Assembly: GCA_021927905.1 (NCBI GenBank)
Contig: BLLK01000069.1
Location: 2,852,001-2,916,000, forward strand
DNA from: Chaetoceros tenuissimus
Taxonomy: Eukaryota; Bacillariophyta; Thalassiosirophyceae; Chaetocerotales; Chaetocerotaceae
Length of the DNA: 64,000 nucleotides
Direction: 5' to 3'
Shown here: piece after piece, positions 25,389-30,237 of the stretch
Position numbering within the stretch: the stretch's first letter is position 1
How the letters are laid out: each line of letters opens with the position of its first letter
Translations under genes and position numbers: made by a program
The notes under the pieces: generated by a model
What the model was told of the DNA's origin: nothing
The model's input: the letters and a program-made list of their open reading frames with translations, nothing else
Database searches by the model: none

Positions 25389-26888
25389 ATGGAAGAGTTC
25401 GAAGTAGATTTTGATCACAACGTTACTGCGCTGTACAAATTCATCAGCGAGAATCAATGGGATGCAGCAATCAAAGCAGCAAAAGAATTCCCTGAGCAAG
25501 CACGTACATGGGTTGTCAGGTATCATCCAGAAACAAATGAAGTCATGTGGAGATTCCTTCCTATCCACTCTGCGTCTGCGAAACAGCCTCCAGAGTCTGT
25601 AATCAATGCACTAATTAACGCATATAGAAGAGGAGCTCAGAGCTGTGATGATCAAGGAATGCTTCCTATTCATTACGCATGTGGAAATCAAGCATCTATT
25701 GAAGTAATTCGTTTGCTTCTTCTCGCAAATCCTGATGGAGCCTCTCTTCGTGATCCAAATGGGATGCTCCCACTTCACTTTATGGCTCAATGGGGTCCAA
25801 GTGATCTCAGGGCACTGGACGTTGTCCTCTTTGCAAATCGTGGAGCGATTGAAATTAAGGATAATGATGGCTTCACTCCTTTAGAGCATGCTATGAATGG
25901 GGAATATGATGGAAGCGAAAGTGTAGCTCATGCTTTGGAAAACTACATGAATGAAGCTTCTCAGCAGGATAGTAGAAATGGACACGGAATGGTTTCCTTG
26001 CCTGGTGCGAACGATGCAGTAACTCGTTTACAACAAGCTGCTGCAGCACAAGAAAAGGCTCGTAAGGAGTACATCATGCAACAGTCCGCAAGCACTCGTG
26101 ATGAACGTGATGATAACATTTCTATGCCAATTGTCAATAACACTTTTTCCTATCAGTTTGAGAATAACCAGCAGGCAGGAGTTCCAACATCGGTAGGAAA
26201 ATTTGATACCTTCGATGACACACATTTCATGTCTACTCAAACCAATGAGGATGCGAAGAAAATAGTTGATGAACTCAAGAGAGAAGTAGATAAACTTCGA
26301 TCTGAAGCTGAAGCTGCAGAGCAAGAAGCTGAGAAAAATGTAGATGAAGAGAGAAGAAAGATGCAAAAAGCTGTTGATGACATGAAAACCCATCTTGCAA
26401 CTTGTGAAAGTGAGACAAAGGCCTCCCTTCATGAATTGACAGAGAAGGAACAGATGGCTAAGATTGTCGATAGTCGTCTAGAAGATAAAGAAAACGAATT
26501 GAAGAATGCCATGAATAGAAATGATTCCTTGAGGAAAGAGCTTGAAGCAGTCAAGAGAGAAATTGCTGGTTATAAATCAAAGACATCCAAACTTGATAAT
26601 CACTTGTCTACATTATCAAGAACAATGACTGGTATGATGAAGGATCAAGAGCAAATCATGAAGGCATCTATGAAGCATGAACAGTACATGAAAAAGATTG
26701 CATTGGAAAGACAACAAAAGATGCAAGATTTGATTGATCAGGAAGTCAACTTTGCAAGAAATTCACTTGAGAAACAGAAAAACAATGAGCTTGGAAGTGA
26801 AGAAATGATCAACGAAGCTTTAGAAAAGCAAAAGAGACTCATGGATGCTGTTCAATCTGTGTTGAGTGAAAGAAGAGTTGTCAGCTAA
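25389..26888 (+). CDS. Ankyrin-repeat protein with C-terminal coiled coil
   Basis: 499 residues, one exon. The N-terminal 50 residues (VTALYKFISENQWDAAIKAAKEFPEQARTWV) form a leading helical repeat. Three to four ankyrin-type units follow (about 50-190), with the motifs GMLPIHYACGNQASIEVIRLLL, GMLPLHFMAQWGPSDLRALDVV and GFTPLEHAMNG. After a Gln/Asn-rich linker, a coiled coil spans about 285-430 (VDELKREVDKLRSEAEAAEQEAEKN) and a second helical stretch ends the protein. This architecture is common in diatoms and usually marks a protein-protein adaptor. The partner is unknown. Convergent with the selenoprotein gene. Confidence 0.8.
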   Translation: MEEFEVDFDHNVTALYKFISENQWDAAIKAAKEFPEQARTWVVRYHPETNEVMWRFLPIHSASAKQPPESVINALINAYRRGAQSCDDQGMLPIHYACGNQASIEVIRLLLLANPDGASLRDPNGMLPLHFMAQWGPSDLRALDVVLFANRGAIEIKDNDGFTPLEHAMNGEYDGSESVAHALENYMNEASQQDSRNGHGMVSLPGANDAVTRLQQAAAAQEKARKEYIMQQSASTRDERDDNISMPIVNNTFSYQFENNQQAGVPTSVGKFDTFDDTHFMSTQTNEDAKKIVDELKREVDKLRSEAEAAEQEAEKNVDEERRKMQKAVDDMKTHLATCESETKASLHELTEKEQMAKIVDSRLEDKENELKNAMNRNDSLRKELEAVKREIAGYKSKTSKLDNHLSTLSRTMTGMMKDQEQIMKASMKHEQYMKKIALERQQKMQDLIDQEVNFARNSLEKQKNNELGSEEMINEALEKQKRLMDAVQSVLSERRVVS

Positions 26889-27237
26889 GAGTGTGGCATC
26901 TGTCATGATTTTTGCGTCAGTATGTTCATGTGGCAAGGGGTAAACAGGAAGTAGTGTGTAGTGTGAATAAACAAGACAAAATTTTAAAATAATGTTAGTC
27001 TCGTAGATTTTTTTCATTATATATTGCTGATGCAAAAAAGTTTTGAAGTCAGACCACCATCTATATTTGCTTCGTATATCACATCGTCAGGTATGCAGAT
27101 GTTAGATGCAAGGCATTGAAATTCACATTCAATTACCAATGCATTTATCCATCATTACTCATCACCGTCATTCATATAAATAATAGTCCAATCCAATTCT
27201 TCTACATTGCAATATTCAAACATTAAAGCACAGTATT
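26889..27237. other. Convergent intergenic region; expected 3'-UTR of the selenoprotein gene
   Basis: A SECIS element for the minus-strand selenoprotein would be expected here. Several ATGA cores occur on the minus strand near 27135-27180. One short stem (TAATG / CATTG with an 11-base loop) is too small to call a SECIS with confidence. Confidence 0.35.
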
Positions 27238-27657
27238 CTATTCGAGATCTTCCTTCAACATCTCCAAGTTTTCCCTGATTGCCTGTTGACTCTTTGCTCT
27301 CTGACTCGCATACTTGCGAAATAAATTTCTTTGATCTCCTTCCCAAACTTTTACTTTTACTTTGCTCGAACCCATTTTTGCTTCGACCATGACTTTGATT
27401 GGATATTTGTCTACACAATTTGCATTTACTTCTGCATCTGGGAACACGTCACGAACACACTGCATTGCAGTGTCTCGCTCTTGTCCCCCTCCGTCTCAGT
27501 TACGGCACTGCATTGAAAGGTGAAAATACGTGAGAATTTTGTAGTTCGTCCAATGGATCTGAAATGATGAATAAATAAAGCGCTGCTAAATCTTTCCATC
27601 CCATAAATCTGGCAATAGACTTACATATGTTACGATAAATGATACTGGTCCTGTCAT
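27238..27657 (-). CDS. Rdx-family selenoprotein (SelW/SelH-like) with CxxU motif
   Basis: Two exons encode 100 residues. Exon 1 (27657-27625) reads MTGPVSFIVTY and ends at a GTAAGT donor. The acceptor TGCAG precedes 27507, where exon 2 begins TGC CGT AAC TGA, that is Cys-Arg-Asn-Sec with Sec at residue 15 (27496-27498). The frame then continues DGGGQERDTAMQC, VFPDAEVNANC and VWEGDQRNLF to a TAG stop at 27238. The beta strand followed by YCxxU is the redox site of the thioredoxin-fold Rdx family (SelW, SelH, SelT), and the roughly 100-residue length fits. Standard gene finders would stop at the TGA. No SECIS was identified with confidence. Divergent from the P450 reductase gene. Confidence 0.8.
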
Positions 27658-28091: not shown

Positions 28092-30237
28092 ATGGAGGAA
28101 GCGTCAGATCTACCAATGAATCTACTGATCGGAGCAGGTTGTGCTACACTTGTCCTCGGCTCCGGACTCGCATTTGTAATGATGAAGAGTAAAAAGGCAA
28201 ATGATGAGCCGTCTATGGAAGAAAAGGAAGAAGAAATTGAAGTTCTTGATCCTGAGGTAAGCGCTAGAAATACATGAATTTCATCGGAAAAAAATCACAC
28301 ATCACATGTGTCATTTTCGCGAAATCCATAATTTGATAGAATTCGCTAATGCCGACCTTTTTCTACTCTAGAAATTTCCAGGAGGACATCTTACAATTTA
28401 CTACGGATCACAAACTGGAACAGCAGAGTCTTTTGCGCAAGATCTTGAAAGAGAGGGCGAAGAGCATGGCTTCAAAGTTCACATTGTAGATCTCGAAGAG
28501 ACAGATGAAGATCCAAGAGCAGCATTGTTGGACCCATCTAAGCAAGATGCGCACGGAAAGAGTAAAGCTGTATTCCTCATGTCTACTTATGGAGAAGGTG
28601 AACCAACTGATAATGCAGCTGGATTTGTTAGATTTTTGAAAGAAAAACTGAGTGATGATGAAGAAGAGAAGAAAGACGATATGGATCCATCCAAAACTTT
28701 TGATGGATTGGAGTATGCTGTTTTTGGACTTGGAAATCGTCAATACGAACATTTCAATGCTATGGGAAAATTTATTGATGCTTCAGTTGCACAAGTTGGA
28801 GGTATGAGAATCATTCCTATTGGCATCGGAGATGATGATGACGACCTGGAGGGAGATTTCGAGAGTTGGAAAGATGGCAAATTTTGGCCAGCTATGAAGA
28901 GCAAATATGTAGGAAATGCGGCAGTTGCTGATACAAAGCATGATAAACTGCCAGAGTGTCATTACAGTGTTGAATACTTGAATGGGGCTGCGTCGCCAGA
29001 CAAAATTTCGCTTGACGATGTGCATCTCAGCTCAAAACATTACTTTACTGCGGTTGATTGTCCAGTAACATTGAGACGTGAATTGAGATCACCAGCAGAC
29101 GATGGTTCCACGCTTCACGTAGAAATTGATATTTCCAAGGGAGGGAATGAAGTCAAATATCAAACTGCAGACAATTTAGGAATCCTTCCTGTGAACAGTA
29201 ATGCTGATGTTGAGAGGATCGCAACAGCATTGAATTATGATCTAGGTGCCTATTTTAGACTCAAGGCTGCAAAAGGACATGAGCACAAACACAATGCTCT
29301 TTTTCCTACACCTTGCTCAGTTCAAGAATGTCTTGCGAGGTACTGTGACTTGTCAGGTCCGCCGCGTCGTTCAGAGCTGAAGCTATTGGCTGCATATGCT
29401 AAGGATCCAATTACCAAGCAAGCACTCATGAGACTTTCATCAAAGGATGGAAAAGCAGAGTACAAAGAGAAGATTCTAGATGCAAAGATGGGTATCGTGG
29501 ACATTATTTCAAAGCTTTGTCCTTCCATCGAGATGCCACTCGAGCATTTTATCTCTGTTTGTCCAAGACTTCATCCTAGATACTATACTATTTCCTCCTC
29601 TTCTTCGATTCACCCAAAGTCCATTCATGCTACTGTTTCTGTACTCAGTGAAAAGAGACAAGATGGATCAGAATTCAAAGGTGTTTGTACAAACTATCTA
29701 GCTGACCTAGTGGACAATGGGAAGATTCGTGCTTTTGTTCGTGAATCTACCTTCAGACTTCCTACTGATGCTTCAAAACCTATCATCATGATTGGTCCTG
29801 GAACTGGTATTGCACCTATGCACGCTCTTCTTCAAGAGAGGTCCTACCAAAAATCAAAGGAAAAGAAAAATGTTGGAAGCAATATTCTTTACTTTGGCTG
29901 TAAGAAGAGAGACCTCGACTTCATTTACTCTGACGAATTGAATGCGTTTGAGAAAGAAGGCATTTTGACTGAGATGCATCTAGCTTTCAGTCGTGAACAA
30001 AGTGAGAAGGTTTATGTTCAACATTTGCTTGCCAAGAATGCAAAGGATACTTGGAAACTCATTGATGAGCAAGGTGCTTACATCTATGTTTGCGGTGCAG
30101 TCAAGATGGGTCAAGATGTCTCTGAGGCACTCCGAAAGATCATTGGTCAGCACGGCGATCGCACCACCACTGATGCAAAAGCTTATCTAGATGATATGGC
30201 TTCTAATGGGCGTTTTATTCAAGAGCTTTGGGCATGA
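28092..30237 (+). CDS. CPR: NADPH-cytochrome P450 reductase
   Basis: A diflavin reductase that passes electrons from NADPH through FAD and FMN to P450 enzymes at the ER. It is 676 residues in two exons: exon 1 28092-28256 (55 codons, ends before GTAAGC) and exon 2 from 28372 (acceptor CTCTAG), phase 0. The N-terminal anchor is LLIGAGCATLVLGSGLAFVMM. The FMN domain has YYGSQTGTAESFA, STYGEGEPTDNA and FGLGNRQYEHF. The FAD domain has RYYTISSSSS and GVCTNYLADL. The NADPH domain has MIGPGTGIAPMHALLQER, YFGCKKRDLDFIY and a C-terminal RFIQELWA with the conserved Trp. Length is normal and all cofactor motifs are present, so a functional enzyme is expected. Confidence 0.94.

Follow-up and report, generated by a model that had tools for sequence, protein, structure and literature searches.

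A probable C-x-x-U selenoprotein gene in the diatom Chaetoceros tenuissimus

The gene and its surroundings

The window, that is the whole stretch of 64,000 nucleotides of Chaetoceros tenuissimus DNA that was analysed, corresponds to positions 2852001-2916000 of contig C54 in a 41-Mb genome of 68 contigs (G000), and the genome-wide searches reported here cover those contigs. The gene under study lies on the minus strand of the window and comprises two exons. Exon 1 (27625-27657) encodes MTGPVSFIVTY and starts with an ATG ahead of which there is no other in-frame Met back to the preceding stop codon; judged by eye, it likely corresponds to the first beta strand of the protein. It is followed by a phase-0 intron of 117 nt (27508-27624, minus strand) running from GTAAGT to CAG. 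This intron includes an in-frame TAG and its retention would therefore truncate the protein. Exon 2 (27238-27507, minus strand) starts with TGC CGT AAC TGA GAC and, as read, corresponds to C-R-N-TGA-DGGGQERDTAMQCVRDVFPDAEVNANCVDKYPIKVMVEAKMGSSKVKVKVWEGDQRNLFRKYASQRAKSQQAIRENLEMLKEDLE-TAG, or C-R-N-Sec-DGGGQERDTA...EDLE if the TGA is translated as selenocysteine; 85 codons follow the TGA before the stop codon TAG at 27240-27238. The spliced product would be a protein of 100 residues with a single TGA (27496-27498, minus strand), the predicted Sec codon, which is residue 15 and occupies the last place of a CxxU motif.

An earlier note on this DNA had described the first exon, a canonical GTAAGT/CAG intron, the TGC CGT AAC TGA sequence and an open frame of 85 codons beyond the TGA, all of which are present up to the TAG. 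It had also predicted that automatic annotation would keep only the part located after the TGA. Mechanical ORF calling does list exactly such an ORF, of 75 aa (27465-27238, minus strand). As a plain ORF caller keeps this post-TGA ORF and loses the redox motif, such genes are easily mis-annotated.

The gene is flanked by a divergent and a convergent neighbour. The divergent one (28525-30237, plus strand) encodes a diflavin reductase of the cytochrome P450 reductase type, with flavodoxin, FAD-binding and NAD-binding domains; by eye, its first exon seems to begin near 28092, about 430 bases from the ATG of the selenoprotein gene. The convergent one (25389-26888, plus strand) encodes an ankyrin-repeat protein whose tail looks coiled-coil-like by eye; its stop codon and the SECIS-like hairpin of the selenoprotein gene are some 200 bases apart.

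Paralogues and the reading of the TGA

When the genome was searched in six frames for the read-through protein, three matches were returned, each with exactly one internal stop, which is a TGA: the window gene itself and two paralogues, L002 (60% identity) and L003 (47% identity). The same three loci were returned when the L003 protein was used as query (E up to 10), and this query found no Cys form of the family in the 41-Mb genome. The TGA is found at the aligned residue 15 in all three loci and is never replaced by TAA or TAG. The earlier note had named homologues lacking any Cys or Sec at residue 15 as what would speak against it; every member found carries the TGA there.

The paralogues also bear on the gene structure. 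L002, whose motif is C-Q-N-U, carries an intron of 91 nt at the same phase-0 position, after VTY, and shares with the window gene the VSF-V-Y pattern of exon 1 and the GTAAGT that comes next. L003 has no intron and encodes MSASLSFILRFCRN-TGA-DGGEQERDTA in one frame (SLSFILRF-CRN-TGA being continuous), which provides an independent marker of the exon junction in the window gene. The splice junction put forward in the earlier note is thus backed by comparison of paralogous sequences rather than by transcripts. Furthermore, L002 has an N-terminal extension, or leader, that reads MMRISKNFTLSCILLGRTTSFTPKFTPV..., and neither the window protein nor L003 has one.

In the alignment of the three sequences, 34 of the 100 window residues are invariant, including the TGA position (typed as C). 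Just after the TGA, nearly all codon changes are silent: over the ten codons from the TGA to residue 26, synonymous changes number 5, 5 and 6 in the three pairs, and nonsynonymous ones 0, 1 and 1. Upstream of the TGA, 11 codons (2, 2 and 2 synonymous versus 3, 5 and 7 nonsynonymous) are moderately conserved, less so than these ten, and the part beyond residue 26 (17, 16 and 19 versus 30, 43 and 45) is also less conserved. Over the 21 codons around the TGA, dN/dS values are 0.077/1.31 for the window gene and L002 and 0.23/1.40 for the window gene and L003, the dS of the L002-L003 pair being not computable over these codons. Directly after the predicted Sec, all three genes encode DGG[GE]QERDTA, a signature that bears out the distinct subgroup suggested in the earlier note.

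These data bear on an alternative according to which the TGA is an ordinary stop codon, the real product is the 75-aa protein that starts at the downstream ATG (27465-27238), and whatever lies upstream is noise or a decayed gene. This is precisely the ORF listed by mechanical calling, and the 11 codons preceding the TGA are conserved just moderately, as this alternative would have it. However, it does not account for the protein-level constraint that the three paralogues show over the ten codons separating the TGA from the ATG. The would-be initiator at residue 26 is a Met in two members only, L003 having Leu there, and initiation at that ATG thus fails to explain why all three are constrained. 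The presence of TGA in three of three members, with no TAA or TAG, and the occurrence of both a SECIS-like hairpin and the Sec machinery also argue against an ordinary stop, which we regard as extremely improbable.

SECIS-like hairpins and the selenocysteine machinery

The earlier note had proposed to look for a SECIS element at 26800-27240 on the minus strand, and a SECIS-like hairpin is found there (27087-27172, minus strand). It begins 68 nt downstream of the stop codon's first base, with AATGAC followed by an extended, imperfect helix (MFE about -18 kcal/mol) and then by CTGA. Other genes of this genome also carry an internal TGA, namely a SelT gene (L007), a SelM gene (L016) and three of the five matches to glutathione peroxidase (GPx). 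A common rule was applied to the 600 nt that follow the stop codon: AATGAC, a helix closing at most 1 nt away and pairing 6 or more of its first 8 nt, then [TC]GA, and an MFE at most -5. It retrieves a hairpin in each of the seven TGA genes for which the 3' end is available (the three members of the family, SelT, SelM and two GPx), 48-112 nt beyond the stop codon's first base. This count excludes L014, the remaining GPx with a TGA, which is an exon with no 3' end available. The rule retrieves nothing in the two GPx-type genes that have no TGA in the matched domain (L011 and L015), of which L015 is a GPx match below the family cut-off with its 600 nt counted from the end of the match instead of the stop codon.

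On both strands of the whole window, the common rule gives a single match, in the selenoprotein gene, and it gives none in 52,916 bases from eight other loci (both strands added; L011 and L015 among them). These specificity figures are partly post hoc, since the rule was partly tuned on the same elements: it was loosened from the AATGACG found in four genes to AATGAC plus [TC]GA, with the cut-off moved to -5, after the SelM and GPx elements had been read. A generic rule (an ATGA...TGA helix with an MFE no higher than -10) has limited specificity, as it matches 23 times in the window on both strands, i.e. 0.11 match per 600 nt; at a cut-off of -9, neither of the GPx hairpins was caught by it.

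In all seven hairpins, the four base pairs next to AATGAC are of standard type (G-U counted), their letters differing from one hairpin to another. In an arm test, the observed mean energy was reached by 2 of the 5040 re-dealings, the true one included; the weak points of this test are the pair of the GPx gene L012, at -0.8, and 4 of the 42 mismatched pairs, which match the median true pair. In the canonical SECIS form, two unpaired A lie about 12 nt downstream of ATGA. By eye, such an AA is found only in the window copy among the seven hairpins. MAFFT produced a poor alignment of four of the elements: their apical loops differ and the window stretch used ended at 27100, the hairpin ending at 27087.

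At the gathering score, Rfam has no match in the window, and three Rfam matches near the gene at E 4.6-6.5 were taken as chance. The Rfam model SECIS_1 has no match in the window and none genome-wide at E up to 10, in a scan that scored 133 of the 890 first-look candidates. This model is silent although SelT, SelM and GPx genes with a TGA and 3' hairpins exist in this genome, so that a diatom covariance model would be useful. The shared AATGAC...[TC]GA hairpin thus suggests a route to more selenoproteins where the Rfam SECIS model matched nothing.

The genome also encodes components of the machinery for Sec incorporation. Half of the ten matches to tRNA-Sec score over the cut-off, and ARAGORN assigned the anticodon TCA to both of those examined (n=2). 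Both SepSecS (E 5.6e-113) and SelD (E 1.5e-75) are found over their cut-offs. As a counterpoint, among 14 control genomes, the tRNA-Sec family has matches in all 14 (5 over the cut-off), the SelD family likewise in all 14 (2 over the cut-off) and the SepSecS family in 3, all over the cut-off and including Bacillus subtilis. Five tRNA-Sec matches over the cut-off (on contigs C34, C27 and C54 of the genome, G000) are more than expected, and some may be pseudogenes.

Silicic-acid transporters have 11 matches in the genome (best E 2.3e-211), none of the 14 controls having one over the cut-off, in agreement with the diatom host proposed in the earlier note. Three of these matches, clustered at G000:C17:442278-446357, each have an open-frame length of 1459 aa and probably belong to one fused frame; the third of them has an internal TGA and an internal TAG.

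A second alternative retains translation through the TGA but replaces Sec by an ordinary residue, a near-cognate tRNA reading the codon by programmed readthrough. Conservation of the frame would be equally expected in that case. However, C-x-x-TGA is the setting of a redox Sec, the hairpin belongs to the type found after the SelT and SelM genes and after two GPx genes here, and tRNA-Sec, SepSecS and SelD are present, all of which makes programmed readthrough very improbable.

It is thus highly probable that the gene encodes a diatom selenoprotein whose TGA at residue 15 is read as Sec. At the sequence level, the basis for this reading consists of a gene structure compared among paralogues, a TGA located in a constrained frame, a SECIS-like element and the Sec machinery.

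Family placement, proposed role and known systems

The earlier note had assigned the protein to the SelW/SelH/SelT family, i.e. to the Rdx family. The data do not support this membership: PF10262 and TIGR02174 are silent for the three members and, in hhalign comparisons, the probability reaches 3-5%. In particular, these two profiles have no match in the window protein (E up to 1) or in L002 and L003 (E up to 10); as positive controls, human SELENOH and SELENOW both match PF10262 and TIGR02174. Over Pfam and NCBIfam as a whole, no family was found for the window protein, and the matches of L002 and L003 correspond to unrelated families only (E 0.03-0.5). Searches of PDB sequences with the single protein and with the profile gave 5 and 4 matches, respectively (E 0.4-1.7); 8 of these 9 are ribosomal and they were considered as due to chance.

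The profile of the family was also compared by hhalign with three Rdx alignments, which were drawn from 12 of 52 bacterial loci, one Rdx domain of L006, SelT, and SELENOH and SELENOW. The probabilities obtained range from 3.3 to 4.6%, with E values of 0.009-0.013, and the part aligned with the two larger sets amounts to 7-8 columns around the motif. With single proteins, E is 0.06-0.17 for SELENOH, SELENOW and SelT (probability below 1%), 0.83 for SelM and 0.48 for GPx. This test is weak, as the family profile was built on three sequences only, and its E values toward Rdx amount to no more than a hint. As a separate observation, L006 and L008 (G000:C32:352070-352648) seemingly belong to one open frame with two Rdx domains, carrying CTGC and then CTDM; the same genome would thus encode a tandem Rdx protein devoid of Sec, in which CTGC and CTDM replace CxxC/U.

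Modelled by AlphaFold from exon 2 alone as a single sequence, the protein forms a helix, three strands and a long helix (pLDDT 69, pTM 0.47), a model of modest confidence whose fold receives no support from the family searches or from the PDB sequence searches. The motif C12-R-N-U15 would lie between a strand assigned by eye only and the predicted helix. Neither Foldseek (best E 0.55; 50 of 479 matches listed) nor VIA (best Z 6.1, for a designed protein; 50 entries listed) gave a clear match to this model, and there is no Rdx chain among the matches listed for the two programs. The order of elements in Rdx domains is beta-alpha-beta-beta-beta-alpha. The order predicted here is compatible with it, so that Rdx membership is unproven rather than refuted.

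The protein could nevertheless be a highly diverged, true Rdx member (SelW, SelT or SelH), perhaps nearest to SELENOH, a proposal that refines the selenoprotein reading and is not opposed to it. It agrees with the position of C-x-x-U immediately behind the likely first strand, with the succession strand-CxxU-helix-three strands-helix (exon 1 included), which is the Rdx order, with W-x-G and V-x-V/I patterns that resemble SELENOH by eye, and with hhalign E values lower for the Rdx alignments and for SELENOH, SELENOW and SelT than for SelM and GPx. Nonetheless, PF10262 and TIGR02174 miss all three members and yet match the control SELENOH and SELENOW, and the hhalign probabilities are as low as 3-5% for alignments and less than 1% for single proteins, over the few aligned columns mentioned above for the two larger sets. 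We consider a diverged Rdx member as a serious possibility that falls somewhat short of an even chance.

Relatives were also sought outside this genome. Comparison of the family profile with viral contigs and with prokaryotic genome contigs left 64 and 110 stretches, respectively, that matched a pattern, none of which is a relative; as the patterns carried Cys at the Sec place, a relative with Sec was catchable only via the second peptide. Collections of phages and plasmids contain no match to the family at E up to 1. The text string QERDTA does not occur with selenoprotein in the literature searched, where sequences are usually in figures or supplements. Since the genome yielded no Cys version, and the collections searched (prokaryotic, viral, phage and plasmid) yielded no relative, the three genes might represent an undescribed family that lies outside Rdx, exists in the Sec form only and is perhaps restricted to diatoms or their relatives, a more tentative proposal that we hold to be less likely than not.

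Whatever its family, the protein most likely acts as a thiol oxidoreductase that depends on Sec, a type of selenoprotein that is nothing unusual in algae. For the window protein, we infer how the TGA is decoded in the cell, as well as the redox function, the fold and the localization. The mRNA would be spliced immediately upstream of the redox motif, and the SECIS hairpin of its 3' UTR would recruit the Sec machinery, so that UGA at codon 15 would be translated as selenocysteine. The resulting product of 100 residues would carry C-x-x-U after the first strand and ahead of the first helix of a compact beta-[CxxU]-alpha-beta-beta-beta-alpha domain. The pair Cys12-Sec15 would presumably cycle between selenol/thiol and selenenylsulfide states, the protein acting as a small reductase or as a redox sensor supplied by glutathione or thioredoxin.

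The paralogues may act in different compartments. The motif ASA-FAP is a diatom plastid motif. In the leader of L002, a Phe follows the Ser in TTS-FTP; this resembles ASA-FAP and L002 may thus act in the plastid. The window protein and L003, which are leaderless, may be cytosolic. If so, and if the family does exist in the Sec form only, a major phytoplankton group may possess cytosolic and plastid isoforms of the protein and, with them, a strictly selenium-dependent redox step. A family of three copies, all with Sec, would also add to the proteins that link selenium supply to phytoplankton.

Among known systems, the Rdx family (SELENOW, SELENOT, SELENOH) comes closest in layout: like its members, the window protein would be a small domain in which CxxU separates the first strand from the first helix, with Sec in the equivalent position of the motif and with strands and helices predicted in the order of Rdx. 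It differs from them by the lack of any profile match and by hhalign scores that are not significant, as well as by DGG[GE]QERDTA after Sec and by the long C-terminal helix that the model predicts. The SELENOT found in this genome (L007) shares with the window gene a motif of this kind (CTSU), a single TGA and an AATGAC...CTGA hairpin past the stop codon. However, L007 is recognized by PF10262 (E 1.4e-12), and its comparison with the window family by hhalign has a probability of 0.4%.

Excerpts of a survey of algal selenoproteins report 20 to 44 selenoprotein genes per species in diatoms and 42 algal families, about half of which have a Trx-like domain (PMC7539508). In the part of another study that deals with Thalassiosira pseudonana, this diatom is credited with 16 selenoprotein genes, and SelW and SelH are unmarked for it in the table (PMC2375036). 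The window family could be matched to no named family in these portions of the two papers, a comparison made without sequences, which lie in figures or supplements (PMC7539508, PMC2375036). What it would share with algal selenoproteins at large, as described in the same portions, is a UGA for Sec in a diatom gene that also has a 3' SECIS (PMC7539508, PMC2375036). Read as above, the window gene is a further small CxxU selenoprotein, such diatom selenoproteins being already known.
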